DNA from: Candidatus Altimarinota bacterium
Lineage (GTDB): Bacteria > Patescibacteriota > Gracilibacteria > BD1-5 > UBA6164
Assembly (NCBI GenBank): GCA_028688895.1
Contig: JAQTXG010000001.1
Span: forward strand, 62,001 to 126,000
DNA: 64,000 nt
Direction: 5' to 3'
Position 1 is the first letter of the stretch. Each line of letters opens with the position of its first letter. Positions 3,310 to 53,610 of the stretch are shown here, piece after piece. The notes under the pieces are model-generated. The model saw only the letters and a list, made by a program, of their open reading frames with translations, did no database searches and was not told where the DNA came from. The translations under genes and the position numbers were made by a program.

Positions 3310-4182
3310 ATGAAAGATACATTTGAAATAGCGTTTGGCTCTATAGTTGGAACCGATCACACGAAAGTATTTAAAAATAATCAGGATGCATACGCATATA
3401 AGCAAGGAAGCAATTATATTGTAGCTTGCGTAGCAGACGGTTGTAGTGCAGGTATTTTTAGCGAATTTGGAGCTAGGTTTGCAGTCAATTTTTTTGTGAA
3501 TTCTGTGAGTAATATCTTGCAGTCACTTTCAGATAAAGAACTTGATTGTCTAGCCGAAAAAGAATATGTTTCATTTCCATTTTTCGATAAAATACGCCTA
3601 GATATGCTATCTTCGATTCGAGTTTTGGCTAATTCTATGGGCAATGATTTGAACAAAATCATCAGTGATTTTTTTTTATTTACATTAGTTGCAGTACTTA
3701 TCACTCCTTTTGGAACAGATATTGTATCCATAGGTGACGGTTACGCAGCCATAAACGGTGAAGAGTTTGATATAGATATTCCTGTCAGTCAGGACTCTAG
3801 TCTAATGAACGCTCCACCATATATGGTTTACAACCTAGTCCACTCAAAACTATATGAAAAAGAAAACAAATCACTAAATTTTCGCTTAATAAAAGGTGTA
3901 AAAACAACACAACTAGATTCACTATTAATTGCTACTGACGGAGTATCAAAATGGAGTGAAATACAAGACTTAAACATTCCAGCAAAGTCAGAATTAGTAG
4001 GTCCATTATCTCAGTTTTGGACTGATGATAAGTATTTTTCAAACCAAGATTTGCTCAGGCGAAAATTATTTTTGATGAACAATCCAAAAATAAGACTAGA
4101 CCGAGAAAACGATTGTATACAAAAATACTCAGGTTTACTAAACGACGACACCACAATTATAGCAATTCGCAGGAAAACATAG
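3310..4182 (+). CDS. PP2C-family protein phosphatase (YegK/TerY-P triad type)
   Basis: 290 residues with the metal-binding motifs of PP2C phosphatases in order: NQDAYA (D26), VADGCSAG (D43, G44), IGDGYA (D143), ATDGVSKW (D210) and NDDTT (D279, D280). It should remove phosphate from Ser/Thr residues using two Mn/Mg ions. It is the first gene of a run with a kinase, a nicotinamidase-like fusion and a VWA protein. That matches the phosphatase of the YegK-YegI-YegL / TerY-P group, which probably reverses the kinase. The start is fixed by TAGGAG 9 bases upstream. Glycine is always GGN and the stop is TAG, unlike host-dialect neighbours. Two palindromic operators precede it. Confidence 0.9.
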   Translation: MKDTFEIAFGSIVGTDHTKVFKNNQDAYAYKQGSNYIVACVADGCSAGIFSEFGARFAVNFFVNSVSNILQSLSDKELDCLAEKEYVSFPFFDKIRLDMLSSIRVLANSMGNDLNKIISDFFLFTLVAVLITPFGTDIVSIGDGYAAINGEEFDIDIPVSQDSSLMNAPPYMVYNLVHSKLYEKENKSLNFRLIKGVKTTQLDSLLIATDGVSKWSEIQDLNIPAKSELVGPLSQFWTDDKYFSNQDLLRRKLFLMNNPKIRLDRENDCIQKYSGLLNDDTTIIAIRRKT

Positions 4183-4256
4183 AAAACTCTATCCTGAATA
4201 CTTTCTATTATTTAAGGAAGGGACTACAGAATTTTTTTAAGCCTCCCTCTAGAGGT

Positions 4257-4290
4257 ATTTATGCCCGAAGGGAGGTATCCTGTGGACAAG
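4257..4290 (+). repeat. 34-bp repeat, inverted copy at 8253-8286
   Basis: ATTTATGCCCG, one variable base, then AGGGAGGTATCCTGTGGAC plus AAG. The reverse complement recurs at 8253-8286 with one mismatch, so the pair brackets the kinase and nicotinamidase-like genes. Upstream, GCCTCCCTC can fold back on GGGAGG to form a hairpin in the phosphatase-kinase spacer. The downstream leader (4285-4320) is also similar to the leader of the VWA gene. Confidence 0.7.
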
Positions 4291-4320
4291 TGAGAGTTTA
4301 AAAAATATGGAGAAAAAATC

Positions 4321-6189
4321 ATGTTAGTAAAAATAAACAACATTGCTGTAAATATTGATCCTACAAAATCAATAGGCAAGGGAGGTGAAGCTGATATTTA
4401 CAATTTGGGTTCCGGTAAAGCATTGAAATTATTCAAAACCGTTGACCATCCAGATGTAAAAGGTTCACCATTAGAAGAACTATCGGCAAAAAATCGTTTG
4501 AAAGAACATCAAAGCAAATTACCTAGTTTTCCTACAGGATTACCTGCAAATGTCATTACTCCAATTGATTTAGCATATGACAAAACAGGGAAAAAGATAG
4601 TAGGATATACTATGAATCTGGTTGATAATGCTTCTGTTTTGTATTCATTCTCACAAAGAATGTTTAGACAAGGCATTTCAAACAACGAGATTACTCAGAT
4701 TTTCCTGAAACTTTTTTCTACTGTAAATACATTGCATAAAAATGGTATTGTAATAGGTGATTTCAATGATTTGAATGTCCTTGTAAATGGACAAAATCCA
4801 TATATTATCGATTCTGACAGTTTCCAATTTGGACATTTTTTGGCCCGTAGTTTCACTCAAGATTTTACTGATCCATTAAATGCAAATCCAAATTCTACTG
4901 CAGTTGAACTTATAAAACCATTCAATCATTTTTCTGATTGGTATGCTTTTGCAGTACTATTATTTCAAAGTTATTTATTCGTAAAACCTTATGGAGGTAG
5001 TTACAAACCAAAAGACCAAAACAATCGAGTCTCACATACAAAAAGGCCGTTAGAAAGAATCACTGTTTTTGATGATGAAGTGAAATATCCAGTCAAACAA
5101 GCTTTGCATTATTCTCATTTGAGTCCTGATTTATTGGATTATTTTTACCAGATTTTCAAATCTGATTTGAGAGAAGTATTTGATAAAAAAATGCTTGAAA
5201 ACATAGAATGGAAAACATGTAAAAAATGCGGTTTGGAGCATGCAACATATGCGTGTCCTAGCTGTGTAGGAATAGTTCCAGGACATGTTGTACAGACTAT
5301 TGTGATAAAAGGCAACTTGAAAGCAAGCAAAGTATTTAATACAAAAGGATTTATAGTTTATTCAAAAGTCGAATCAGGTGTTTTGAAATATATCTATCAC
5401 TCAAATGGTGCATATTATCGTGAAAACGGTGAAAAAATCATTGATGGAGAAATAGACAATCAGATCAGATTTAGGATAAATTCTAGAAATACTTTGTTGT
5501 CCAAAAAAGGTATTTTAGTCACTATCAAAAATACTCAAATCATCGATAAGGTAGCAGTTGGTAGCTGTGGAATATTACCAGTATTTGATTCAAACTCTTT
5601 AAACAGATTTTGGATTTCGGCTGAAAATATCTACAAACAAGGTACATTAGGACCGGAACCAATTGGTAAAATACTTTCAAAACAAACTGTGTTTTGGGTA
5701 GGTGAAAAACTAGGATTTGGATTTTATAGAGCAGGTGATTTAAATGTTGGTTTTATCTTTGATACTTCCAAACACGCAATTCTCGACTCCATAGATTTCC
5801 CAATAATCCCAGGAAAACTCCTAGATGTGACTTGTTATATATCTGATAAACTGATTTGGTTTTTCGCAAGCTTCATGCAAAACGGAAACAAAACTAACAG
5901 ATGCATAGTCTATGACAAACAAGGCAAAATACAAGCGACAAAAGAAGAAATATCTAGCGTCGACTCTTGGCTTACTTCCATTCGTGGTAAAACAGTTTAC
6001 GGAGATTTTTTGATGTCTGCAACAGACAGTGGTATAGTCCAACTTAAAGTTGAAAACTCACAAATCATCGTAAAAAATTCCTACCCAGATACTGCCTCCT
6101 ACGTAGATGATGAAAGTATTATTCATCTCTCAAATGAGGGAATTTATGTAGTAGACTACAAAGAAATAACATTGTTGCAATTACATTAA
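4321..6189 (+). CDS. Ser/Thr kinase with zinc ribbon and beta-rich tail (YegI-like)
   Basis: 622 residues. The kinase fold covers about 1-290: glycine loop GKGGEA (19-24), lysine K36, catalytic GDFNDLN (D147, N152) and DSDSFQ (D163) in place of DFG, as in the YegI/TerY-P kinase family. A four-cysteine zinc ribbon follows (C300-x2-C303, C312-x2-C315). The remaining 300 residues are beta-rich and propeller-like, with no family recognised. It probably phosphorylates partners in the operon, opposed by the PP2C upstream. GGAGAAAAAATC precedes the ATG. There is no in-frame TGA in 622 codons, and the stop is TAA. The target is unknown. Confidence 0.88.
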   Translation: MLVKINNIAVNIDPTKSIGKGGEADIYNLGSGKALKLFKTVDHPDVKGSPLEELSAKNRLKEHQSKLPSFPTGLPANVITPIDLAYDKTGKKIVGYTMNLVDNASVLYSFSQRMFRQGISNNEITQIFLKLFSTVNTLHKNGIVIGDFNDLNVLVNGQNPYIIDSDSFQFGHFLARSFTQDFTDPLNANPNSTAVELIKPFNHFSDWYAFAVLLFQSYLFVKPYGGSYKPKDQNNRVSHTKRPLERITVFDDEVKYPVKQALHYSHLSPDLLDYFYQIFKSDLREVFDKKMLENIEWKTCKKCGLEHATYACPSCVGIVPGHVVQTIVIKGNLKASKVFNTKGFIVYSKVESGVLKYIYHSNGAYYRENGEKIIDGEIDNQIRFRINSRNTLLSKKGILVTIKNTQIIDKVAVGSCGILPVFDSNSLNRFWISAENIYKQGTLGPEPIGKILSKQTVFWVGEKLGFGFYRAGDLNVGFIFDTSKHAILDSIDFPIIPGKLLDVTCYISDKLIWFFASFMQNGNKTNRCIVYDKQGKIQATKEEISSVDSWLTSIRGKTVYGDFLMSATDSGIVQLKVENSQIIVKNSYPDTASYVDDESIIHLSNEGIYVVDYKEITLLQLH

Positions 6190-6229
6190 TCAACAGTATT
6201 AAATAATTCTTATTAAAAAGATGGGGGTT

Positions 6230-6334
6230 TTAGGGGGGAGGACTGAGATGAGCCGCATGTAGAAACATCAAAACATGCCAGTTGGAACTTCTCCCCCCTA
6301 ACAGTTTTGCCATACTTTTGCTGTCAAAAGTATG
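6230..6334. repeat. Stacked inverted repeats in the kinase to nicotinamidase-like spacer
   Basis: TTAGGGGGGAG (6230-6240) pairs perfectly with CTCCCCCCTAA (6291-6301), enclosing a smaller CATGT/ACATG stem. Next comes CATACTTTTG-CTGT-CAAAAGTATG (6311-6334), a perfect 10-bp hairpin without a T run. The rest of the 259-base spacer is an A/C-rich, T-poor leader ending in AGGTGA before the next ATG. It could be an mRNA processing or attenuation site or a short mobile repeat. Confidence 0.6.
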
Positions 6335-6448
6335 AAAGAACCATACCACACTACAAACTAAAAATCACAACAACCCAAAAATCTTAACACAAACTTATTA
6401 ACAAAAACAACTTTAAATTAATCAAAAATCCAAAACAGGTGAAATAAA

Positions 6449-8179
6449 ATGAAACCAAACAACTACAAAAACGCATTCTTAAATTCACAAAAACAAAGCG
6501 TATCTGGCTTGTGTGGGCGGATTATCCGAGGCGTACAGGACAAAGACTTCCTGTCACTGACCGATGATCCAAACCGCAAACTGGTTATGCTGATGGGACC
6601 TGACGGACTACAATCCATCTTGGGTAAAAACGGCCTTGAATCATTGGTACAAATCGGCTACGAAGCTGACTACATCAATCACAAAGTCAATGTTGAAAAC
6701 AACAAATTCAAACTGATTGTCTTCAAAGAAGGTGCTCAAGCCAGGATTGCCACTTGGGACAATGTCATAGACATTGCGTCAAGTGTATACCCAAGCATTG
6801 CACTGAAATTGCAAGCTCAAAAAAATGGTTTGAAACAATCAAGTTTTTCAGAAATCGAGTCTCAATCAGGCTTCAAGTTCAGTGAAGTAGACAAAGTCGG
6901 TGTTTCTGATTCACGATTTATGAATTTGGAACGTTTAGAAAAATCTATTGGAACTCTATCTGAAGTCAGAGCTTTTTTGTACTTTAGTGTTTATCTGAAA
7001 GAATTATTTTCTGGAGACGGCTATACTTATAGCTTCGACGGCAAAAAAGGACTTCAAGAATACATAGTTCCAAATATGTCAATCTCAGATCTGGACTCAT
7101 CAATAGTCATCGATCTGGAAATCAAATTACCACAACAAAACAAGGTGAATATCATGTCAAAAAAACAATTGAACATCCCAGCAATTTACGATGAATCAAA
7201 AGTTGATCAAATCCGTAGAATTGCATACAACGATATTGCTCAAAAAGCCAGACAGTGGGCAAAAGATAATGCTATCAAACCAGCAGCCAGCGACAAAGTA
7301 AAAGTTGCTGTGTTGGGTATTGATATGCAAAACACATTTTGCACTCCTGGTGGTGAACTTTTTGTACAAGGCGCAGTAGAAGACTCCAAACGGTTCGTAG
7401 AGTTTATCTACCGCAACATGAACTACATCTCTAAACTGGCAATGACATTGGACACACATACTGCCGAACAAATCTTTCATGAAGAATTTTTTGTGAACGA
7501 TGACGGCGAACACCCAGCTCCAATGACTATGATCTCTATCAAAGACATCGAAGATGGTATCTGGAAAGTGTGTCCCAGTGTAGCTGCAAACATCGCAAAT
7601 GGCAATTACATCGCTGTACAAAACCATGTTATGCACTATGTCAAAGAACTGAAATCAAAAGGTCGTTATGACTTGTTGATTTGGCCATATCACGCTATTT
7701 TGGGTGGTGTTGGTCACGCTTTGGTTCCAGCTATCGAAGAAGCTTGCTTTTTCTATGACCGTGCTAGAAACAACCAAACCAAGTTTGAAGTAAAAGGTGG
7801 AAATCCTTTGACTGAAAACTATTCAGTGTTTGGTGCTGAAGTCTTGACCACAAGCGGTGGCAAACCTATTGCACAAAAAAACACCAGTTTTATCAAATTG
7901 CTTTTGGACTATGATTATGTAGTCATCGGTGGTCAAGCAAAAAGTCACTGTGTGGCTTGGACTATCGAAGATTTACTGACTGAAATCCAAGCAAGAGACC
8001 CTAAACTGGCAAAAAAAGTTTACTTATTGGAGGATTGTACATCTCCAGTTGTAGTTCCAGGTATAGTTGATTATACCGATGAAGCAAACGAAGCATTCAA
8101 AAAATTTGAAAAAGCAGGTATGCACATCGTAAAATCTACTGATGCAATCGAAAACTGGCCAGGAATTATCCTGGACTAA
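6449..8179 (+). CDS. Unknown domain fused to nicotinamidase/isochorismatase-like hydrolase
   Basis: 576 residues. The N-terminal part (1 to about 228) has no family I recognise, but its paralogue is the free-standing protein at 12584-13234. The C-terminal part (about 280-576) is an isochorismatase-fold cysteine hydrolase: D292 in GIDMQNTFC, a TLDTH metal-site motif, YHAILGG, and catalytic C501 in QAKSHCVAWTIEDL. It probably cleaves nicotinamide or a related amide, but is larger and divergent from pncA at 14354. AGGTGA sets the start. A second GGTG and ATG at about 7143-7156 lies at the domain junction, as if two genes fused. Glycine is always GGN and the stop is TAA. It sits between the kinase and VWA genes. 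Confidence 0.82.
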   Translation: MKPNNYKNAFLNSQKQSVSGLCGRIIRGVQDKDFLSLTDDPNRKLVMLMGPDGLQSILGKNGLESLVQIGYEADYINHKVNVENNKFKLIVFKEGAQARIATWDNVIDIASSVYPSIALKLQAQKNGLKQSSFSEIESQSGFKFSEVDKVGVSDSRFMNLERLEKSIGTLSEVRAFLYFSVYLKELFSGDGYTYSFDGKKGLQEYIVPNMSISDLDSSIVIDLEIKLPQQNKVNIMSKKQLNIPAIYDESKVDQIRRIAYNDIAQKARQWAKDNAIKPAASDKVKVAVLGIDMQNTFCTPGGELFVQGAVEDSKRFVEFIYRNMNYISKLAMTLDTHTAEQIFHEEFFVNDDGEHPAPMTMISIKDIEDGIWKVCPSVAANIANGNYIAVQNHVMHYVKELKSKGRYDLLIWPYHAILGGVGHALVPAIEEACFFYDRARNNQTKFEVKGGNPLTENYSVFGAEVLTTSGGKPIAQKNTSFIKLLLDYDYVVIGGQAKSHCVAWTIEDLLTEIQARDPKLAKKVYLLEDCTSPVVVPGIVDYTDEANEAFKKFEKAGMHIVKSTDAIENWPGIILD

Positions 8180-8252
8180 AACTTTATTTTTTTGCATTAC
8201 TATAAGTGTAAAAAATACGTTAAATAATCCACCCTTGTAAAATTACCAATCC

Positions 8253-8400
8253 TTGTCCACAGGATACCTCCCTACGGGCATAAATTCCTTCCATTAAGTC
8301 TAATGAAGGAGGCTACAATCAATTTAATGTAGCCTCTTTCCAGCTTTAGCGGGATAGAATTTATCCGAAGGGACAAGAGAGAGGTTAAAAAATCAATTAG
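8253..8400. repeat. Inverted copy of the 34-bp repeat plus further palindromes
   Basis: 8253-8286 is the reverse complement of 4257-4290 with one mismatch. It is followed by AAGGAGGCTACA / TGTAGCCTCTTT pairing (about 8305-8340) and GAATTTATCCGAAGGGACAAG (split as GAATTTATCC and GAAGGGACAAG). The last is a partial direct copy that leads into the VWA gene's ribosome-binding site. A weak operator-like AGTGT-N7-ACGTT lies upstream near 8205. Confidence 0.65.
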
Positions 8401-8410
8401 GAGAAATATC

Positions 8411-9208
8411 ATGTCAAACACAACAGTAAATGATTTGTTTGGTTCTGCAGCGGATGAAGGTTTGTTATCACAAGACTCTCAATCAGCGATTGAATTTGCC
8501 GACATCGGCGAAGAAATCAATGCAGCACTAGGCATAAACGCAGACGATTTTGGTTCCAGTGAGGTAGTTCTAGTAACTATGCTCATCGATGATTCAGGAT
8601 CGATTCAGGGTAGTAACAACGTAGATGTAGTTATAAATGGCCACAACTTGGTCATCGAATCTCTACAATCCACAAAACAAGCACAAAGCGACTCTATTTT
8701 GGCACATACACGTTACCTAAATGGCAAAGTATTATTTCCTTATCAGTCTATAAATCAGGCTGTTAAAATGGACCATAGTAACTACAACCATTTCGGAGGT
8801 ACACCTCTATATGACCAATCTGCAGTTGTTTTGGCTACTGTCATTGCCAAATGTCAGGAATTTTCTGACAACGGTATTGCTTGTCGAAGTGTTACATTGA
8901 TTGTAACCGATGGCGCTGATTGTCACTCTAACAAGTTTAGAACAGCAAAAAGCATTTCGCCATTGGTTCGCGACTTGTTGAGACAAGAAAACCATATCGT
9001 TGCTGCAATGGGTATTGACGACGGTGGTTATACCGATTTCAATTCAGTATTCACAGAAATGGGGATTCCAGATTCATGGATTCTAACCCCAGCAAACACT
9101 GACTCAGAAATCCGTGCCGCTTTCAATATGTTTTCCCAATCTGCAACCCAGGCTTCTCAAAGCGCTCAAGCATTTAGCCAAGCTGCTATGGGAGGTTTTG
9201 GAAATTAA
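8411..9208 (+). CDS. Von Willebrand factor A protein (YegL/TerY-like)
   Basis: 265 residues with a complete MIDAS metal site: DDSGSI near residue 60, GGTPLYD near 129, and VTDGADCHS near 164. This is the pattern of TerY/YegL-type cytosolic VWA proteins. The last 30 residues are low complexity, rich in Ser, Gln and Ala. In TerY-P triads the VWA protein works with the PP2C phosphatase and kinase, probably as their target or scaffold. Here those two are upstream in the same run. AGGAG 8 bases before the ATG fixes the start. Glycine is always GGN and the stop is TAA. Confidence 0.85.
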   Translation: MSNTTVNDLFGSAADEGLLSQDSQSAIEFADIGEEINAALGINADDFGSSEVVLVTMLIDDSGSIQGSNNVDVVINGHNLVIESLQSTKQAQSDSILAHTRYLNGKVLFPYQSINQAVKMDHSNYNHFGGTPLYDQSAVVLATVIAKCQEFSDNGIACRSVTLIVTDGADCHSNKFRTAKSISPLVRDLLRQENHIVAAMGIDDGGYTDFNSVFTEMGIPDSWILTPANTDSEIRAAFNMFSQSATQASQSAQAFSQAAMGGFGN

Positions 9209-11665: not shown

Positions 11666-11878
11666 TTTTTTTATTAAAATATCTAAAGTATTCAGTATTT
11701 TCTAAAGAATATTATTTTATAACCTAGAAATATACTTAATTATAATAATAATATAATAAATAAAATATATAAAAAGTCAATAAAATACTTGATTAATAAA
11801 ATTTATCTATATAATCTAACAGAAGGTAAAAAAACCTTCATTAAACTATCGTCATTATTTAAAAAAAGGGGAAAACTG

Positions 11879-12463
11879 ATGACAAGAAGAATTATTGATA
11901 AAGAACTACTAGAAAGAGTGTTTTTGATAACATTATCTGCACTTCTATTATTTGTAATTTCAAGTTACCTTACAAGTGGCTTTGAAAAATCTACAACATA
12001 CAAAATCGTCGCTACGATATTTTGTATAGCATTAGTTTATGGAATGAAGTATTCAATAAAAATGTATGATGGAACTGAAATATTGCTATCTATCGGATTC
12101 TTAAGTTTATTTGGTTCATTATTTGGCTCTATTTTGGAGTTGCTTGGCATGAATGATGCAAGTGAAGTAATATTAGCATCAAGCATTATTTTGGTAATAA
12201 CTTTCTTTTATCTATCTTACTATACTAGTATTACATCAAAAAAGATTGATTTTTTTTCAATGTACATGGCTAGTATTACTATTAATGTGATTCTAGGTTT
12301 TGTGTATTTTTACTTTGTAAATATTGAGGTAGCTCAGATATTTACAGCACTTATAGTTGTTTTTTTATTTATCGCTTATGTTTTCTACAAGACAGATAAA
12401 TTAATAAAAAATGATTATAGGGATCCTTATAAAATCTGCTTTAAATTGTTTTTCAATATTTAA
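11879..12463 (+). CDS. Six-helix integral membrane protein
   Basis: 194 residues with six predicted membrane helices and short loops. The shape recalls the Bax inhibitor-1/YccA group or small permeases, but no motif decides this. I choose ATG 11879 over an ATG 90 bases upstream because AAAGGGGAAAACTG gives a good ribosome-binding site, and a GAAGG-A7-CCTTC-like hairpin (about 11822-11839) lies in the leader. There are no in-frame TGA codons, and the stop is TAA followed by a hairpin terminator. It precedes the free-standing copy of the unknown domain, which has its own promoter. Confidence 0.72.
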   Translation: MTRRIIDKELLERVFLITLSALLLFVISSYLTSGFEKSTTYKIVATIFCIALVYGMKYSIKMYDGTEILLSIGFLSLFGSLFGSILELLGMNDASEVILASSIILVITFFYLSYYTSITSKKIDFFSMYMASITINVILGFVYFYFVNIEVAQIFTALIVVFLFIAYVFYKTDKLIKNDYRDPYKICFKLFFNI

Positions 12464-12482
12464 AGTCAGATATCTAAAATAA

Positions 12483-12515
12483 AAACCCATCTGGAAACAG
12501 AAGGGTTTAATTTTT
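12483..12515 (+). terminator. Terminator with GAAA tetraloop
   Basis: AAACCC-A-TCTG-GAAA-CAGA-A-GGGTTT followed by AATTTTT. It separates the membrane-protein gene from the promoter of the next gene. Confidence 0.85.
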
Positions 12516-12520
12516 ACATA

Positions 12521-12554
12521 TTGACATTTTATAAAATTGTGTATTATATACAAA
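12521..12554 (+). promoter_or_regulatory. Promoter with a degenerate AGTGT-N7-ACACT operator
   Basis: TTGACA (12521-12526) with TATTAT (12542-12547) or TATATA (12545-12550). Over the -10 lies TGTGT-N7-ACAAA (12538-12554), the same spacing as the perfect operators but with three mismatches. It precedes the paralogue of the N-terminal domain of the 6449 protein, which strengthens the regulon idea, but the site is weak on its own. Confidence 0.5.
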
Positions 12555-12583
12555 CTTTGTATAAAATCGTTGAGGTAAAGCTC

Positions 12584-13234
12584 ATGAATATAGATGAATA
12601 TGTAACTTGTTTTAAAAATAAACAAGAAATCACAGATTTGAATGCTTACAATGCTAGAATATTGAGAGGAAAAAAAGATAGTGATTTCCAGACTTTGTCA
12701 GATGATAAAAATAGGAAATTGGTTTTTGTAATGGATGATGAAGGATTGCAAAAAATAGTAGGAAACTCTACATATGAAATGCTCATAAAAACAGGATATC
12801 ATCCAAATTATATAGAACAACTTTTTGCTGAAAAAACAATTTTCAAACTGATTATTTTTCCAAAAATAAACCCAAAAATGTTAGCTACATGGGACAATGT
12901 ATTAGATATGGTAGTGATGCTATATCCAGATACAATAAATCAAGTAACTGACTACATAGAACAGTTAAAAGAAACCAGATTTGAAGAAATAGAAAAATTA
13001 TCAGGACACAGATTTGCAGATATAAGCAAGAATTATTTTAAAAATGCAGCTAGTTTAAAAGGCTTAGCAGAGTTTAGATTTTTTCTGTACCACTCAATTT
13101 ATCTCAGAGAATATTACCAAGGAGATGGATTTACAAAGAATTACAAAGGAGAAAAAATATTTAGAGAATATGTGGTTTTTAACACACAAATAAGATATTT
13201 GAGTGATTATAGAATCATAGATTTAGAGATATGA
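12584..13234 (+). CDS. Free-standing copy of the 6449-protein N-terminal domain; ends in UGA
   Basis: 216 residues aligned along their whole length with residues 1-228 of the 6449-8179 protein. Shared features are RILRGKKDSDFQTL vs RIIRGVQDKDFLSL, DDKNRKLVFVM vs DDPNRKLVMLM, ATWDNVLDM vs ATWDNVIDI, and the end IDLEI. The function is unknown. GAGG lies 9 bases before the chosen ATG; an upstream ATG-less frame is excluded because the promoter starts at 12521. The stop is TGA, 1 base before a terminator hairpin. If read as glycine it adds 23 residues, to TAG at 13303, through the hairpin. This fits descent from a standard-code genome. Confidence 0.78.
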   Translation: MNIDEYVTCFKNKQEITDLNAYNARILRGKKDSDFQTLSDDKNRKLVFVMDDEGLQKIVGNSTYEMLIKTGYHPNYIEQLFAEKTIFKLIIFPKINPKMLATWDNVLDMVVMLYPDTINQVTDYIEQLKETRFEEIEKLSGHRFADISKNYFKNAASLKGLAEFRFFLYHSIYLREYYQGDGFTKNYKGEKIFREYVVFNTQIRYLSDYRIIDLEI

Positions 13235-13235
13235 A

Positions 13236-13268
13236 AAGAGCCATATGCAATAAGCATATGGCTCTTTT
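13236..13268. terminator. Shared bidirectional terminator
   Basis: AAAAGAGCCATATGC-AATAA-GCATATGGCTCTTTT (stem of about 15 bp) between convergent genes 12584-13234 and 13284-13985. Both genes end in TGA just outside it. Confidence 0.9.
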
Positions 13269-13283
13269 ACAATCACAAATTTT

Positions 13284-13985
13284 TCACCCAGTTTTGCTCA
13301 TAGCTAACCATTGAGTAAGAGTTTGTAGTTCTTCAATTGGCTTTGATTGTACATTTGCAAGTTTTGCGATACTTTTAGATCCCATGGATAACAAGTACGT
13401 CATATAATTGTTAAAGACCAACTCATCCAATACAAAAATATTATCCGAATGTTCTTCAAAAATATAACCACCATTTGGCAAAGGAGTCTGAGATAATACA
13501 ACTGAATAATGTTCTTTTACAATAGATTCTTCAGTAGAATACATGAGGCCGATATTGTATCCTTTGCCTGAAAAACCATTTATCATAACCACAAGTACTT
13601 TTTTATCTCCACTTTTGGATGAATTAAAAAGCCCTATCAAGTCACTGATAAATCTATAACCAGGTATTTTGGACAAAATGAATTCTAAGCTATTTTTAAA
13701 CCAACTACCTATTCTAGTCTCTATAAAGTGACCAACGATATACGAAGCCAATACCAATATAAATATTCCAACCAAAGTCCACAAAATAGGGTAATGAATA
13801 GGAATAATTCCCATAATATGGAAAAGCTTTCCAGCTACAATATCAGCCTTACCATACAACCAAAGAACTATCATTGCCATAGCAGCAATCGGTGCCAACC
13901 AAAACAAACCTGAAATACTTGCTCTAACAAAGTGATTTACACCACCATCAAAGTATTTTTTCAAAGTAGTCAGTAAATTTTTCAT
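13284..13985 (-). CDS. DUF502-family membrane protein; ends in UGA
   Basis: 233 residues. Two membrane helices (about 24-46 and 66-90) follow GLFWLAPIAAM, then HFIETRIGSW, KIPGYRFISDL and a soluble part with MINGFSGKGYNIG and PLPNGGYIF. The pattern matches DUF502 proteins, whose function is unknown. Upstream is AAGGAG 5 bases before the ATG. No internal TGA is used, but the stop is TGA. If it were glycine the protein would gain 35 residues across the terminator and end at TAA 13179. It is convergent with the gene on the left. Confidence 0.82.
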   Translation of the reverse strand: MKNLLTTLKKYFDGGVNHFVRASISGLFWLAPIAAMAMIVLWLYGKADIVAGKLFHIMGIIPIHYPILWTLVGIFILVLASYIVGHFIETRIGSWFKNSLEFILSKIPGYRFISDLIGLFNSSKSGDKKVLVVMINGFSGKGYNIGLMYSTEESIVKEHYSVVLSQTPLPNGGYIFEEHSDNIFVLDELVFNNYMTYLLSMGSKSIAKLANVQSKPIEELQTLTQWLAMSKTG

Positions 13986-14353
13986 GATTTCTCCTTTTGA
14001 ATTGTATATTTTGGATAAATATACTTTATACCTTATACATAAAATTACACAAAAAGCAATAACAAATTATTATTTTCTAAAAATCTTTTGACAAATATAA
14101 AATTATTATTATAGTGTCTATATAACACTCATATATAAATAATAAAAACAGTATTAAAGGGGAATCAAAAACTCAATCTAGACTGTAAAATTTATTTATA
14201 TTATAGATATGTTATATATTTTTTTAAAAACTATAAAGTGTAAATATTACAGTATTAATTATAAAATAATATAAATAATATTGACTAATAATAAAAATAT
14301 TTTATAGTATAAGAAATATTCTCAAAAGTATATTATATATTAATCAAAATATT
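13986..14353 (+). promoter_or_regulatory. pncA regulatory region: two promoters and two operators
   Basis: TTGACA (14088-14093) is followed after 16 bases by TATAGT (14110-14115), with a perfect operator AGTGT-N7-ACACT at 14113-14129. A second copy, AGTGT-N7-ACAGT, is at 14237-14253. A second promoter nearer the gene has TTGACT (14281-14286) and TATAGT (14303-14308) with a 16-base spacer. ATCTTTTGACAAA is shared with the promoters at 3222 and 16499. No gene is seen in these 368 bases. Confidence 0.72.
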
Positions 14354-27700: not shown

Positions 27701-28799
27701 ATCAAAGCAATATTTTTACGAAAAAAATCATTTGTGATCAATAACAAAAGTCACAGATGAACTATGAGCAATAGTAGAACAATACGAATACGATGCATTC
27801 TGAACAGCCTACGCAAGTGTAAATAATGTAGAAGCAGTAACAGAAGCTCAAAGCAACAAAACATTATCAATCAAGAAATCAGATTGAAGTGAAACAGCAA
27901 GTCAGTGAGATAGTGAAGAAATAACAATAAATAATATTAGATACAAGAGATATAACTGAGTTTGAAAGATTTGAAATACGAGATTATATACAGGTAGAGA
28001 GTATGATGCAGAGCTAAAACTATACTATTTAAGAGCTAGATATTATAGTCCAGATTTAGGAAGATTTATAAGTAGAGATCCGATAGATGTAAGAGATGAT
28101 GTGAATTTATATGGGTATGTGGGGAATAATGGGGTGATGTTTGTGGATAGGAGTGGGTTGAGTAAAGCATTAGTTTTTATATCAAAAGATAAATTTTTCA
28201 ATGATAATAAAACATGATATACTGTTTTAGAAACTTTAGCAAAAATATTTATTGATGACTTAATTGAAAAATGATACAAATGGGATGGTAATTTTAATTT
28301 TGAATGAGACATAGTAAACTCAGAAAGCTCAAATATAGAAATAGTATATTGAAATAACATAGATGATTTTGTTAATTCGATAAATAATAAAGAGTATAAT
28401 GATATTATTTTAATATGACATGCAAATAGTAACGAAATTTCTCTTGATTCAAGTTGAAGCTGATTAATTCCTATTAATATAGTACCACAAGTTGATGCTC
28501 CATGAGATAGAGATTATATTATTGATGAATATTCTATTAATAAATTGCCAAGTTTAAATTCAAACACTACTCTAACCATTTGATGATGTCTTTCTTGATA
28601 TGGTGAAAATTCAATTGCTCAACAAATTTCAACACAAATGTGAATTACAGTAAAAGCACCTGAAACTCTTTTAAATTCTGATAATGAAGATTGAAAAATA
28701 TATAATGGATGAACTAGTATTTTTTGATGATTGATTGATATTATTAGAAATTGAAAACAAGAGGCAGAATTTAAATTATTTAATCCAATAAAAAATTAA
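21739..28799 (+). CDS. Subtilisin-RHS polymorphic toxin (frameshift near 22562)
   Basis: About 2350 residues in code 25. A signal peptide comes first, then an S8 subtilisin domain: D180 in VLDTGID, H215 in DDNGHGTQ, and Ser at nt 22812 in SGTSFSAP. A long series of YD/RHS repeats (about 24200-27900) follows, and the RHS core ends at GRFISRDPIDVRDDVNLYGYVGNNG. The final 215 residues are a variable toxin tip with IILIGHANS and LTIWGCLSGYG, a His-Cys pair 56 residues apart as in clan CD peptidases. The frame shifts by one base near 22560-22564, inside the subtilisin domain; a base seems missing. The downstream 6.2 kb is open, so this may be an error or recent damage. Confidence 0.85.
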
Positions 28800-28800
28800 A

Positions 28801-29178
28801 ATGATAAACAACTATTTAGATATTTTACTTTTTATATTTATTATAAATTTTATAATAAGATACATTTATAATTACTATAGTAAAAGTGTAAACATTTTAC
28901 ATATTACTTATGATAGTATTATTTTATCTATAATATTTTATATTATAATATTAATTTTAGATAAACCATATACTAATTATGATTCTATTTTTATAGATAT
29001 ATTAATATATCCATTTATAATTTTATGATTACCAATTATATATATTTTTTTAAAGAAAAAATATATATTAAAAATAGGGGGTGAAGTCAGTACATATTAT
29101 TTATTAACAGAGATAGTTATAATTATATTAACTGTATATACTTCAATAAAATTATCATGATACATAGAACATTTGTAA
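28801..29178 (+). CDS. Candidate immunity protein, membrane-bound
   Basis: 125 residues, starting 1 base after the RHS toxin stop. It has four likely membrane helices and only two TGA glycines. No family recognised. Position directly after a polymorphic toxin is the usual place for its immunity gene, so the role is inferred from context. A 30-residue frame (29157-29249) overlaps its end and runs to TAG; it may be a remnant of an older cassette and is not called. Confidence 0.65.
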
Positions 29179-29319
29179 GAAAACCTAGCGTTGTTGATGA
29201 AAATGATAATTTTATAAAAGTAGATAAAATCATTTGATATGTAAAATAGTTCTAAAAAACAAAGTAATTATCAATTACGATAGTTACTTTGTTATAAAAT
29301 ATAATTTAAAATTTGAATT

Positions 29320-31505
29320 ATGTTAAAACAATATTTCAGTAATAATAACAAAATAGTAAGCAGTACATACGATGAATTAAATAGACTAACAAACAGAACA
29401 ATCCAAACATCTACATGAGTATTATGAGCAACATCAGAAACATATACTTATGATGAACTAGGTAGACTAATAAACTGAAATGATAATCTAAATAATCCAG
29501 TAAGTTTTAATTATGATAGTTTAAATAGGTTAATAAACGAAACAAATAATAACGAAAATACAAACTATACATACGACCAAAACTCAAACATAACAAGCAT
29601 AAACAACACAAACTATTCATATGATATAGCAAATAGACTACAAACAATAAAAAACTGAACAGAATCTATAGCAAACTACACATACAACAGCCTAACACAA
29701 ACAAAACAAACACTATGAAACTGAGTAATTACAAACTATTCATATGATGAACTACTGAGATTATCAACACTATGAAATTATAACTATACTTACAACACTC
29801 AGTGAAATATAACAAACGATTGAAAAGATAGCTATACTTACGATATCCTATGAAGACTTACATCAGTAAACTATGACAAAGTAAATACTCCAGGCTACAA
29901 CTGAGACAAAATAGAGAGATTTTACTATGACAATGTATGAAACAGAACCAATCAAGAAAACTATACATTAAAAGAAACATCAACAGAAACATGTAGCGAT
30001 GAAACAGTCGTAGAAGATATCACACTTCCAAACGGCAAAACAAAAACAGTAGAAAGAAAACAAAGAAAATGTGAAACAGCAGTAACCCAAACAGAGAAAC
30101 AAAAAAATACACTTACATACAATACAAACCAATTAAACCAATACACAAAACTCCAAAATCTAAATAAAAATGGAGAAGTAAAAAAGGAGTTCACATACAA
30201 CTACGACAAAAACTGAAACCTGACAAAAGATGATATAAACCAATACTTTTATGATTACAAAAATAGACTAGTAAAAGTAATCCAAAATGAAGTAATAAAA
30301 GTAGATGAAAACTGAAATATACTAGAAACAATTCCAGAAAAAGAAATAGTAAAATATAGTTATGATGTATTATGAAGAAGAACAACAAAACAAACACAAG
30401 AAGAAAAGATAAACTATATATATGCTTGACAAAACGCAATACAAGAAAATATATACACACAATCATGAACAACACTTACACTAAAAGAAACAAGACAAAA
30501 TATCTACTCTAATAATCTAGATGATATACTATTTACAATAGTAGTAGATGAAATAAATCAAACATCAAAGCAATACTACTATGAAAAAAATCATCTATGA
30601 TCAATAACAAAAATCACAGATGAACTATGAGCAATAGTAGAACAATATGAGTACGATGTATTCTGAACAGCTTATGCAAATGTAAATAATGTAGAAGCAG
30701 TAACAGAAGCACAAAGCAACAAAACATTATCAATCAAGAAATCAGATTGAAGTGAAACAGCAAGTCAGTGAGATAGTGAAGAAATAACAATAAATAATAT
30801 TAGATACAAGAGATATAACTGAGTTTGAAAGATATGGAATATGCCCTGACCGAAGGGAGGAAATACTCTTGGGGTGCGAGATTGTATACAGGTAGAGAGT
30901 ATGATGCAGAATTGAAATTATATTATTTAAGAGCGAGGTATTACAGTCCAGACTTATGAAGATTTATAAGTAGGGATCCGATAGATGTAGCAGATGATGT
31001 GAATTTGTATGCTTATGTGGGGAATAATGGGGTGATGTTTGTTGATAGGAGAGGGATGGCAAAGGATTTAATTGATTTAATATTTTCTAAAATTTCTAGT
31101 GGCTATAATTATTTAGTAAATGTTAATTCATTAGATATAGAAGAGTTAAAGAATTCAGTAAAGTATGCAGATAAAGTAATAATTGTTAGAACTGTTCCAA
31201 ATGATCCAACAAATACAAAACCTTATGTACCAAGTCTTCATACACAAATAATTTTTTACAAATGAGATACTCCTATTGCATCACTTTGATCAGCTCCAAT
31301 ATGATGATGGTATTTATTGCTAGACGAAAAATCAATAAATAAATATGCAATGTATGGGATTATGATTTGAGAAGAAAAAAATGACATATCATGATGTATA
31401 ACTTGATTAGAGAATAGTTTTTCAACTAGTAATTGGACTTTTAATGGTAAGCTAGATATATGTTGGAATTGAGCATATTCATGTTATACTAATGCAAAAT
31501 ATTAA
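29320..31505 (+). pseudogene. Orphan RHS tip 1, disrupted by a 35-base insertion
   Basis: Starts at an ATG and repeats the end of the full toxin (from about 26500) nearly word for word: YD repeats, the Cys-containing segment, then the RHS core. At 30842-30876 a 35-base insert shifts the frame just before the core RLYTGREYDAELKLYYLRARYY. Beyond it the core ends NNGVMFVDRRG and a new 160-residue tip follows, different from tip 0, with six cysteines near the end. There is no signal or protease domain. It fits the displaced-tip model, in which recombination through the shared core swaps toxins. Confidence 0.75.
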
Positions 31506-31530
31506 TAATAATTGTTTAATTAAATAATAA

Positions 31531-31770
31531 ATGAAAAAAATAATTACTAATATTGTTAAAAATAAATTTAAGATATTAATTCGTACATTAATTATATTCT
31601 TTTTATTAATGATCTTTTGAGATACTATAGAGTTTTTTACATTAAAATTAACTGATAGTGAGTTTTTAATTAATTTAGTGTGATACATTTATTTTACTAT
31701 ATACTATATTAATTTATCTGCTATGGTATTAGCATTGCTATTAATTATTTTAAAGATAAAAAATAATTAA
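31531..31770 (+). CDS. Candidate immunity protein for orphan tip 1
   Basis: 79 residues with a basic start (MKKIITNIVKNKFK) and two membrane helices. It lies 25 bases after the orphan toxin stop and ends at TAA. It is unlike the 28801 protein except in being small and membrane-bound. No family recognised; the role is inferred only from its place after a toxin tip. Confidence 0.55.
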
Positions 31771-31827
31771 TACAAGTTAATAAATAAAATAACTGATAAT
31801 TTACAGTTATTTTATTTTTTTTGTAAA

Positions 31828-32970
31828 CAATACATATACGATGCATTCTGAACAGCTTATGCAAATGTAAATAATGTAGAAGCAGTAACAGAAGCTCAAG
31901 ATAACAAAACATTATCTATAAAAAAAGCAGATTGAAGCGAAACAGCAAGTGAATGAAACAGTGATGAAATAACAATTGATAATATTAGGTACAAGAGATA
32001 CAATTGAGTTTGAAAGATATGAAATACGAGACTTTATACAGGTAGGGAGTATGATGCAGAATTGAAACTATATTATTTAAGAGCTAGATATTATAGTCCA
32101 GATTTAGGAAGATTTATTTCTAGAGATCCGATAGATGTGAGAGATGATGTGAATTTGTATGCTTATGTTGGGAATAATGGGGTGATGTTTGTGGATCCTA
32201 CATGAGAAACTAAGCAAATACTGTTAAATGTTATTAGGGATGTAAAAGATGCAAATGATTATATTTGATATGCCTGACTTACTGTTACAGTAGCATGACT
32301 TACTCCAGTTCCTTGAGCTCAGGCATTAGTACCATTTTGAGTAGTGATATGATGAACTAGTATAGTAGTAGATATAGTTTTATCAATACCAGAATCATAC
32401 ATAATAAAGTCTTATTCACCATTTATGAAATCAAGCATAACTGGAGTAATAAGTTATGGTTGATGAAAAATTATTTCATGAATTTCTTGATTTAGAATAG
32501 AAGTTAATTCTTGAGCTGTAAAAGTAAATTGATTATGAGACTACACACTTAACTATTATTCTATAGATATATTCTGAAACATAGAAGAAAACAAAACAAT
32601 TAACTTTACACTTACAGAAAAACCAGAAACATACTCTTGAATAATCTCATGATTTGTGTATGATGATAATAACAATAACTGAATCAAAGAAACTACAGAA
32701 AAATTAATGGCATGATGGAAAGTATGTATAGACAAAAATAATAACTGAACTTGTGAAGAAAGTACAGAACCATTTATACTTACCAACAATGATTGATTCT
32801 ACGAATTCAATTGATTACCAAAATGATTATACAAAATCATAGAAATACCACACACAAATTGGAATATCATAAGTCCAACAAACATGTATTTTGATGTAAA
32901 TTTATGAATAGGTCAGGAAATAATAAATAAGAACTTTGGGAATTATAAGTATAAAGGCAATAAAAAATAA
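31828..32970 (+). pseudogene. Orphan RHS tip 2 with SdrD/Cna-B-like end, no start codon
   Basis: Homology to the RHS core starts abruptly at QY-x-YDAFGTAYANVNNVEAV and runs through GRFISRDPIDVRDDVNLYAYVGNNG. The frame is open back to the TAA of the immunity gene, but no ATG or GTG lies in that stretch, so it is probably silent. The new tip has hydrophobic segments (VTVAGLTPVPGAQALVPFG), then a repeat-type beta domain with DDNNNNGIKE and DGFYEFNGLPKGLYKI, typical of SdrD B/Cna B modules. It may serve as a store for tip exchange. Confidence 0.72.
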
Positions 32971-42053: not shown

Positions 42054-43139
42054 TTATTTTAGAGGATATACATACCCCAATTTAATCATAAGTTCGGCAG
42101 TCAAAACTGCTCCTCCAGCAGCCCCGCGAACTATATTATTTACCATACCAGTGAATTGTAAAACACCAAATTTTTGATTGTATTTCAATTCACCGCATAC
42201 AAAAGCCATACCATTATGCTTGTTTACATCTCGAAGTGGCTCAGGATAGACATTATCACCGAGGTAATCGATTACTACTTCAGGCGATGATGGCAGATTA
42301 TAGTCAGCAAGTGGATTATAACGCTCAAATGATTTTTTCAGATTGTACATATCAATCAAAAAATTACTTGTCTTTACAAAAACATTTGCTGTGTGACCAT
42401 CTTCTACCGGCACTCTGTAAGAAGTAGCAAAAATAGGTATATTTGTATCAGAAATAATCTTTCCATCAGAAAATCTACCAAAAATCTTCATAGGTTCCTT
42501 TTCAGATTTTTCAGCTTCGCCAACAAGTGGCAAGATATTTCCATGAATACTGGGATATTCCGATAAATGTTTACCAGATCCACTTATAGCTTGCATCAAG
42601 CTTACATTTACATATTCTATCTGAATCTGTTTTCCTATCACATCCATGATAGCCATGTAAGCTTGAGCTGCACAATTTGGCTTCACTACGATACAACCTC
42701 TTCGAGTACCCAGTCTGATTTTTTGCTCAGACAAAACTTTTAGATGATTTACTCCATTTATTTCCGGCACTATCATCGGGACATCATCATGCCATCTCAT
42801 AGCCGAGTTATTTGAAACTACAACTACTTCTTTTTTAGCATAAGCTTCTTCCAACCGGATTATTTCATCCTTTGGCATATCAACTGCACAAAAGATCAAA
42901 TCAACCATTTTGGAAACACTTTCCACATCTGACGCATCCATGATAGTCATTTCGAGTATTTCTCTATCAATAAGTGCTTGTTCTTCCTGTGGTATTTTGA
43001 ACTTCATTTTTTGTCCTGCAGATCTTTCACTGGCTGCAACAACTACTACATTCATCCATGGATGTTCAGAAAGCATTCTCAAGAAAACACGACCAACCAT
43101 ACCAGTTGCACCGATTACTCCTACATTTATTTTTTGCAT
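42054..43139 (-). CDS. asd: Aspartate-semialdehyde dehydrogenase
   Basis: 361 residues, close to the archaeal/fungal-type length. GVIGATGMVGRVFLRML is the NADP-binding loop, VVVVSNNSAMRW follows, and the catalytic cysteine is in VVKPNCAAQAYM, with a catalytic-His context in ATSYRVPVEDGHTANVF. It reduces aspartyl phosphate to the semialdehyde for Lys, Thr and Met synthesis. The gene is TGA-free, has GAGG before the ATG, a near-consensus promoter and a G/C-rich terminator, all unlike the flanking host-dialect genes. No other gene of that pathway is near, so it looks imported as a single unit. Confidence 0.93.
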   Translation of the reverse strand: MQKINVGVIGATGMVGRVFLRMLSEHPWMNVVVVAASERSAGQKMKFKIPQEEQALIDREILEMTIMDASDVESVSKMVDLIFCAVDMPKDEIIRLEEAYAKKEVVVVSNNSAMRWHDDVPMIVPEINGVNHLKVLSEQKIRLGTRRGCIVVKPNCAAQAYMAIMDVIGKQIQIEYVNVSLMQAISGSGKHLSEYPSIHGNILPLVGEAEKSEKEPMKIFGRFSDGKIISDTNIPIFATSYRVPVEDGHTANVFVKTSNFLIDMYNLKKSFERYNPLADYNLPSSPEVVIDYLGDNVYPEPLRDVNKHNGMAFVCGELKYNQKFGVLQFTGMVNNIVRGAAGGAVLTAELMIKLGYVYPLK

Positions 43140-53018: not shown

Positions 53019-53327
53019 ATGAAAGTTAAAAATAATGCTAGTTTTGCAGTGATAGCTATTGCTTGGGATTATAGATTTGGTTTTGGTGAAGAAGTCGCTA
53101 TTGAACCGGGTGAAACACTAGAAGTACCAGGTCCATATGTAGGAGAGATGGGAGGAGGCACTTGTACATTGCATTTATCTGATGTCACTTATGAGTGTCA
53201 TGAAGGTGCTGATGAAGCAAATATATTTCATATATCTGCTGGTCATCAGTGTGCATTAGGAAACGACCAATCAGGTTTGACAATCAGACATTATTCAGAA
53301 GATTTACTGACTGAAAAGAAAAAGTAG
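53019..53327 (+). CDS. Unknown beta-rich protein, TGA-free class
   Basis: 102 residues, MKVKNNASFAVIAIAW, then VAIEPGETLEVPGPYVGEMGGG and a His-rich middle (CHEGADEANIFHISAGHQC). It looks like a small beta-sandwich with four Cys and five His, possibly binding metal. GGAG lies 8 bases before the ATG. It is followed by a G/C-rich terminator shared with the convergent gene. Stop TAG. No family recognised. Confidence 0.75.
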   Translation: MKVKNNASFAVIAIAWDYRFGFGEEVAIEPGETLEVPGPYVGEMGGGTCTLHLSDVTYECHEGADEANIFHISAGHQCALGNDQSGLTIRHYSEDLLTEKKK

Positions 53328-53337
53328 CCTATGTAAT

Positions 53338-53362
53338 AAAATAGCCCCGTAAGGGGCTATTA
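53338..53362. terminator. Bidirectional terminator
   Basis: AATAGCCCC-GTAA-GGGGCTATT between the genes ending at 53327 and 53389. Confidence 0.88.
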
Positions 53363-53388: not shown

Positions 53389-53610
53389 TCAAGCAACGGA
53401 TTTCAAATGTTTTCTTTGTTTTACCAGTTCGCGTCGATCCATTTCATCAATGACGACTTGACCACCAGCTTTACCAGCTTCAATAGCCAGTTTTTTCATG
53501 TAATTATCTGGTCCACCTGCATCGCTCATATTTTGGAGCATTGCTGCGATACCATAGATTTTCCCACCAGTACGATGTGAAATTGCAGTTTGACTACATT
53601 TTCTAGTCAT
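53389..53610 (-). CDS. Unknown 73-residue basic protein; ends in UGA
   Basis: MTRKCSQTAISHRTGGKIYG, then DAGGPDNYMKKLAIEAGKAGGQ and a basic helix (DRRELVKQRKHLKSVA). I start at the inner ATG because GAGAGG lies 7 bases before it. All glycines are GGN. The stop is TGA; read as glycine it would add 20 residues through the terminator to TAG at 53329. The residue pattern recalls small basic nucleic-acid-binding proteins, but no family is recognised. Confidence 0.68.
   Translation of the reverse strand: MTRKCSQTAISHRTGGKIYGIAAMLQNMSDAGGPDNYMKKLAIEAGKAGGQVVIDEMDRRELVKQRKHLKSVA

Follow-up and report, generated by a model that had tools for sequence, protein, structure and literature searches.

What becomes of a gene that ends in UGA, with a terminator directly behind this codon, in a bacterium that reads UGA as glycine? 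Two convergent genes of a Candidatus Altimarinota bacterium raise this question. They lie in the 64,000-nucleotide stretch of DNA analysed here (the window), and the original prediction held that both are free of internal UGA and end in UGA beside a shared hairpin. The analysis confirmed this arrangement, which comprises the following features:

12584-13234, forward strand: gene for a 216-aa protein of no known family, UGA-free, ending in TGA 13232-13234
13284-13985, reverse strand: gene for a DUF502 membrane protein of 233 aa (Pfam DUF502, 7.9e-9), UGA-free, ending in TGA 13286-13284
13234-13268, both strands: shared hairpin with A4 and T4 at its ends, resembling a terminator in either direction (-25.7 kcal/mol, z = -8.2)
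13235-13303, forward strand: theoretical readthrough tail of the 216-aa gene, through the hairpin to a TAG; 23 residues including the Gly at the UGA
13179-13283, reverse strand: theoretical readthrough tail of the DUF502 gene, through the hairpin to a TAA

The organism reads genetic code 25, in which UGA encodes glycine. Its genome comprises 1.8 Mb in 57 contigs and is 91.8% complete. Glycine codons were counted in a 653-kb sample and UGA-ended genes were surveyed in 676 kb, with the ORF-poor contig C7/L020 and contig C12 (L025) excluded. The latter, 11 kb without UGA along its whole length, is probably a contaminant of the bin. UGA makes up about 69% of glycine codons (7929 TGA vs 3522 GGN), and in the 653-kb sample the UGA fraction per gene is bimodal, with almost no genes at 20-30%. 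Between species, UGA and GGN exchange at 133 of the 223 conserved glycine sites that have at least one GGN, a total summed by hand over ortholog pairs. A tRNA with a UCA anticodon (L035:13314-13389, reverse strand) has G1-C72, C2-G71 and U73. This acceptor end is the one expected of a bacterial tRNA-Gly, and we regard it as a candidate tRNA-Gly(UCA). The search for prfB (release factor 2) proposed in the original prediction yielded none above the cut-off in this 91.8% complete genome. The sole match was a cross-match to prfA (257 bits vs a cut-off of 370), which scores 453 bits with its own profile and itself contains 13 in-frame TGA. Likewise, prfB above the cut-off is absent from 47 of 48 family genomes, the present one included; the lone copy is UGA-free, comes from a bin with some 500 contigs and is probably contamination. 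RF1 carries PET at the PxT position, a motif that we take to mark it as the UAA/UAG type. From UGA usage, the absence of prfB, the RF1 motif and the UCA tRNA, it follows that UGA is glycine, with no known route of release. The suggestion that UGA can still terminate on some messages was therefore not borne out. Both components of ribosome rescue were found above their thresholds, namely a tmRNA (84 bits, above the gathering score; tag hand-read from its sequence as AKNRIAGGLASF) and SmpB.

The hairpin between the convergent genes is a perfect 15-bp stem (13234-13248 with 13254-13268) around the loop AATAA, and it starts with the A of the 216-aa gene's own UGA. None of 200 shuffled sequences was equally stable. 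Only four T follow the stem, and a pattern scan did not call a terminator here. The body of the 216-aa gene has 9 GGN and no TGA, and that of the DUF502 gene 20 GGN and no TGA. The GC3 of the DUF502 gene is 0.279, against 0.151 +/- 0.040 in native genes; that of the 216-aa gene is 0.208, merely 1.4 sd above native. Under code 25, the forward gene would extend by 23 residues to TAG 13301-13303, and the reverse gene by 35 residues to TAA 13179-13181. These lengths agree with those first proposed, but a simple gain of residues does not follow, because the 3' end of the hairpin precedes the next in-frame UAA or UAG, and a transcript ending there lacks a stop codon.

Are these UGAs real protein ends? 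Another UGA-free gene in the window encodes a protein whose residues 1-225 match the 216-aa protein at 38% identity:

6449-8179, forward strand: UGA-free gene, relative of the 216-aa gene joined to an isochorismatase/nicotinamidase-like half; this second half has its own SD-like sequence and ATG

The alignment stops at the last residue before the TGA, and the readthrough tail is unrelated to the sequence that follows the matching domain in the longer protein. Judged from this paralogue alignment, the UGA of 12584-13234 is the true, ancestral protein end. This comparison of ancestral ends covered 12584-13234 and 53389-53610 (see below), the DUF502 gene having no close relative. The second half of 6449-8179 also has a free-standing homologue in MT837596.1 (L057). 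This sequence, labelled as a phage from human faeces, carries the gene set of window positions 3310-9208 plus a TROVE-like protein. The 3310-9208 region is a UGA-free block encoding a PP2C phosphatase, a kinase, the nicotinamidase-like fusion and a vWA-like protein, and its nicotinamidase-like gene is also seen in huge phages.

The convergent pair belongs to a larger group of genes:

11783-14064: block made of a Bax1-I-like gene, the 216-aa gene and the DUF502 gene; missing at the syntenic place in a congener (G002)

From 14065 onward the native flank is collinear with that of the congener. The right border is firm (score 103 vs a shuffle maximum of 68), and the left one is weak (57 vs 59) and not significant alone. 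A misassembly was considered; against it are the interleaved native UGA-rich genes and the right border supported by the congener. Homologues of the 216-aa protein were absent among 98 relatives, and no match was found in GTDB contigs, viral contigs, phages or plasmids. Its predicted structure was too poor for a structure search (pLDDT 47.5). The DUF502 protein had no close relative in the genus or among the relatives, and no homologue in GTDB contigs. These searches therefore point to no donor. The very recent transfer initially suggested suits this pair, as judged from its absence from the 98 relatives; it does not suit 53389-53610, which occupies the same place and ends in the same UGA in a congener. 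An integron-like cassette origin was also considered, since short repeats adjoin some UGA-free genes, and was rejected because these are dispersed small inverted repeats. One such small hairpin element has inverted 38-nt copies at 4253-4290 and 8252-8289 (95% alike); it adjoins UGA-free genes and also occurs in G002. At 27774-32196, in or near a 2078-aa ORF, there are long direct repeats, one of 375 nt at 89% and others shorter.

A third case had been proposed at 53389-53610. It is also correct: the gene ends in TGA beside a hairpin, and the next in-frame UAR is 20 codons away:

53389-53610, reverse strand: 73-aa gene, UGA-free, ending in TGA 53391-53389
53340-53361, both strands: hairpin common to this gene and to 53019-53327; it precedes the in-frame TAG 53331-53329 of the 73-aa gene
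53019-53327, forward strand: 102-aa gene, UGA-free, ending in TAG; its orthologue in G002 is likewise UGA-free

The body of the 73-aa gene contains 8 GGN and no UGA. The hairpin is also found 3' of the orthologue of 53019-53327 in G002. The 73-aa gene has an orthologue in another species of the genus (G004), with 81% protein identity, 87% DNA identity, dN of 0.11 and dS of 0.27. This orthologue ends at the same TGA, and its upstream region is conserved. After the TGA, conservation is not above chance, and the two UGA-ended orthologues have readthrough tails that do not resemble one another. A homologue from another family (G050) ends in TGA followed by a terminator. That genome can be assigned to code 25 because UGA is spread through an ORF of 1206 aa; it is GC-rich and uses UGA rarely (L073; 10 of 173 Gly in this ORF). 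In a fourth genome (G039), the homologue has TAA at the matching place and lacks a tail. Hence, the same end position reads TGA, TGA, TGA and TAA in four genomes, and these matching ends argue that the proteins do not include the readthrough tails. As in the 216-aa gene, comparison of homologues indicates that the 73-aa protein ancestrally ended at the UGA, which agrees with the original proposal of real ends and answers its call to examine the tails of homologues. The gene neighbourhood is the same in G004, so that the UGA-ended gene probably predates both species. A change from UGA to UAA requires a single transition; that UGA was kept through speciation implies that its cost is small or that the gene is little expressed.

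These genes are part of a wider set. The window holds ten UGA-free genes, with GC3 of 0.21-0.37 against 0.151 +/- 0.040 in native genes. They are not merely highly expressed native genes: EF-G and L11, which are presumably of that kind, are UGA-poor and keep the native GC3, whereas the UGA-free genes do not. A UGA-free body, foreign base composition and patchy distribution, the marks of foreign genes, are all found. In the 676 kb surveyed, eight UGA-free genes end in UGA and about 18 in UAA or UAG. A further candidate, L026:67-849, was dropped because it looks like a dnaK gene read on the antisense strand. Six of the eight have a hairpin and T-run before any in-frame UAA or UAG. In the seventh, readthrough joins an ABC permease to its ATPase (L030:16233-18002, reverse strand); the permease UGA lies directly before the SD and ATG of the ATPase, and the result would be a single fusion of 589 aa. 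In the eighth, a TAA three codons past the UGA could serve as back-up. A close in-frame back-up stop before the transcript end is thus found in one gene of eight, is missing in six and is replaced by a gene fusion in one. For comparison, a terminator-like hairpin just past a UGA near the 3' end occurs in 4 of 38 UGA-poor ORFs. Within native-like ORFs, any such hairpin occurs in 3 of 453, in every case mid-gene.

Some UGA-free genes are common to relatives: 42054-43139 is shared with G004, and 53019-53327 and two small genes are shared with G002. In the five UGA-free ortholog pairs, the 73-aa gene included, none of 50 conserved glycine sites (again summed by hand) shows an exchange between GGN and UGA, in contrast to the 133 of 223 GGN-containing sites in other pairs. 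Judging from these sequences, either amelioration is suppressed in these pairs or the genes were acquired separately. The gene at 42054-43139 is a UGA-free aspartate-semialdehyde dehydrogenase with 25 Gly here and 26 in G004. The pair is 66% identical and differs at 55% of fourfold sites, and may reflect persistent exclusion of UGA or separate acquisitions.

We consider it reasonably probable that these genes came from standard-code donors and that their recoded stops yield non-stop messages and ribosome rescue. The donor genes would have ended in a UGA stop with an intrinsic terminator directly after it. In the host, UGA would be decoded as glycine, chain release at this codon would be lacking, and the ribosome would pass the old stop and enter the hairpin region. 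Transcription would end at the hairpin, ahead of any in-frame UAA or UAG, leaving an mRNA without a stop codon. The ribosome reaching its 3' end would be rescued, most likely by tmRNA/SmpB, which would tag the foreign protein for degradation. We infer four of these steps, namely that the genes are transcribed, that transcription stops at the hairpins, that these particular UGAs are read through and that the products are tagged. Several points count against this model. Just four U follow the 13234-13268 stem, the GC3 of the 216-aa gene is only slightly above native, and the 73-aa gene has retained its UGA through speciation. Moreover, prfB could sit in the missing ~8% of the genome, although the family data speak against this.

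The short U-tract at 13265-13268 would equally suit a host that terminates weakly at hairpins, so that transcripts reach the next UAA or UAG and the proteins gain 20-35 neutral residues at the C-terminus. Just 20-35 codons indeed separate these UGAs from the following in-frame UAR, and the dissimilar tails of the 73-aa orthologues are what neutral tails would look like. We nevertheless find such tailed proteins unlikely, as in three further cases 7 of the 8 bases past the stem are T, the tails would be translations of palindromes, and convergent transcription would enter the opposite gene. A much less plausible possibility is that some residual release activity still ends translation at UGA on such messages. 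The retention of UGA-ended genes would be explained, including the family that keeps UGA in two species and in a second family of the order. Moreover, eight tails were compared, namely the six above and those of the homologues in G004 and G050. None contains an in-frame UAR ahead of its T-run, as against 8 of 16 out-of-frame readings; this deficit is suggestive only. However, prfB is lacking here and, above the cut-off, in 47 of the 48 family genomes, the RF1 motif is PxT-type, and general termination at UGA would be lethal given that native genes use this codon at ~70% of their glycine positions.

The 73-aa family is also what would be expected if UGA and terminator were retained deliberately and, in the manner of E. 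coli arfA, the product appeared only once rescue became saturated: in each of three code-25 genomes, UGA stands ahead of a different terminator and no in-frame UAR intervenes. Such programming seems very improbable to us, since any UGA-ended gene of standard code has this layout, the fourth member of the family ends in TAA and the other cases encode mutually unrelated proteins. It is also doubtful that these genes form a lasting class that excludes UGA, some of its members ending in it, maintained by ongoing exchange with standard-code organisms or by programmed non-stop messages. If this were true, the first example of the class would be the 73-aa family, which has UGA and terminator in three code-25 genomes.

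Does a changed code cut a lineage off from foreign genes? The debate, still unsettled, has drawn mainly on phages and on engineered E. coli. The origin from standard-code donors that we favour would provide a natural chromosomal case of such a barrier. The barrier would be the terminator behind the UGA, not the UGA alone, and it would remove the back-up stops on which published reasoning relies. This model predicts non-stop transcripts and tmRNA-tagged foreign proteins.

Several known systems resemble the present one in part. The E. coli arfA mRNA is a non-stop message through a hairpin inside its ORF. Our genes likewise have a hairpin ahead of the usable stop codon, a likeness in layout alone, without sign of regulation here. 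With the code 25 of Absconditabacteria and Gracilibacteria, the genome shares UGA within genes, a UCA-anticodon tRNA and prfA only; prfB has been reported absent from every BD1-5 genome available at the time (PMC6851277). The literature consulted here treats UGA as sense throughout and does not discuss chromosomal genes with their own UGA stop, in which the present genes differ. Code-11-compatible phages of Gracilibacteria and Absconditabacteria also have UGA-free bodies readable in both codes, and close alternative stops after UGA are argued to keep their products viable (PMC10746230). Here, on the other hand, the genes are chromosomal and a terminator lies between the UGA and the next stop in six of eight; these hairpins would defeat close back-up stops in most cases. 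In E. coli without RF1, UAG-ended transcripts undergo suppression, frameshifting and tmRNA tagging, and this tagging blocks plasmids and viruses in the recoded strain (PMC6207430). Both cases involve an imported stop without its release factor, and tmRNA rescue would be expected in ours too. However, UAG is unassigned in the recoded strain and ribosomes stall there, whereas UGA has a cognate tRNA in our organism and the block would arise at the 3' end of the mRNA. Finally, the recoded E. coli is an engineered system, and the present case is a natural one.
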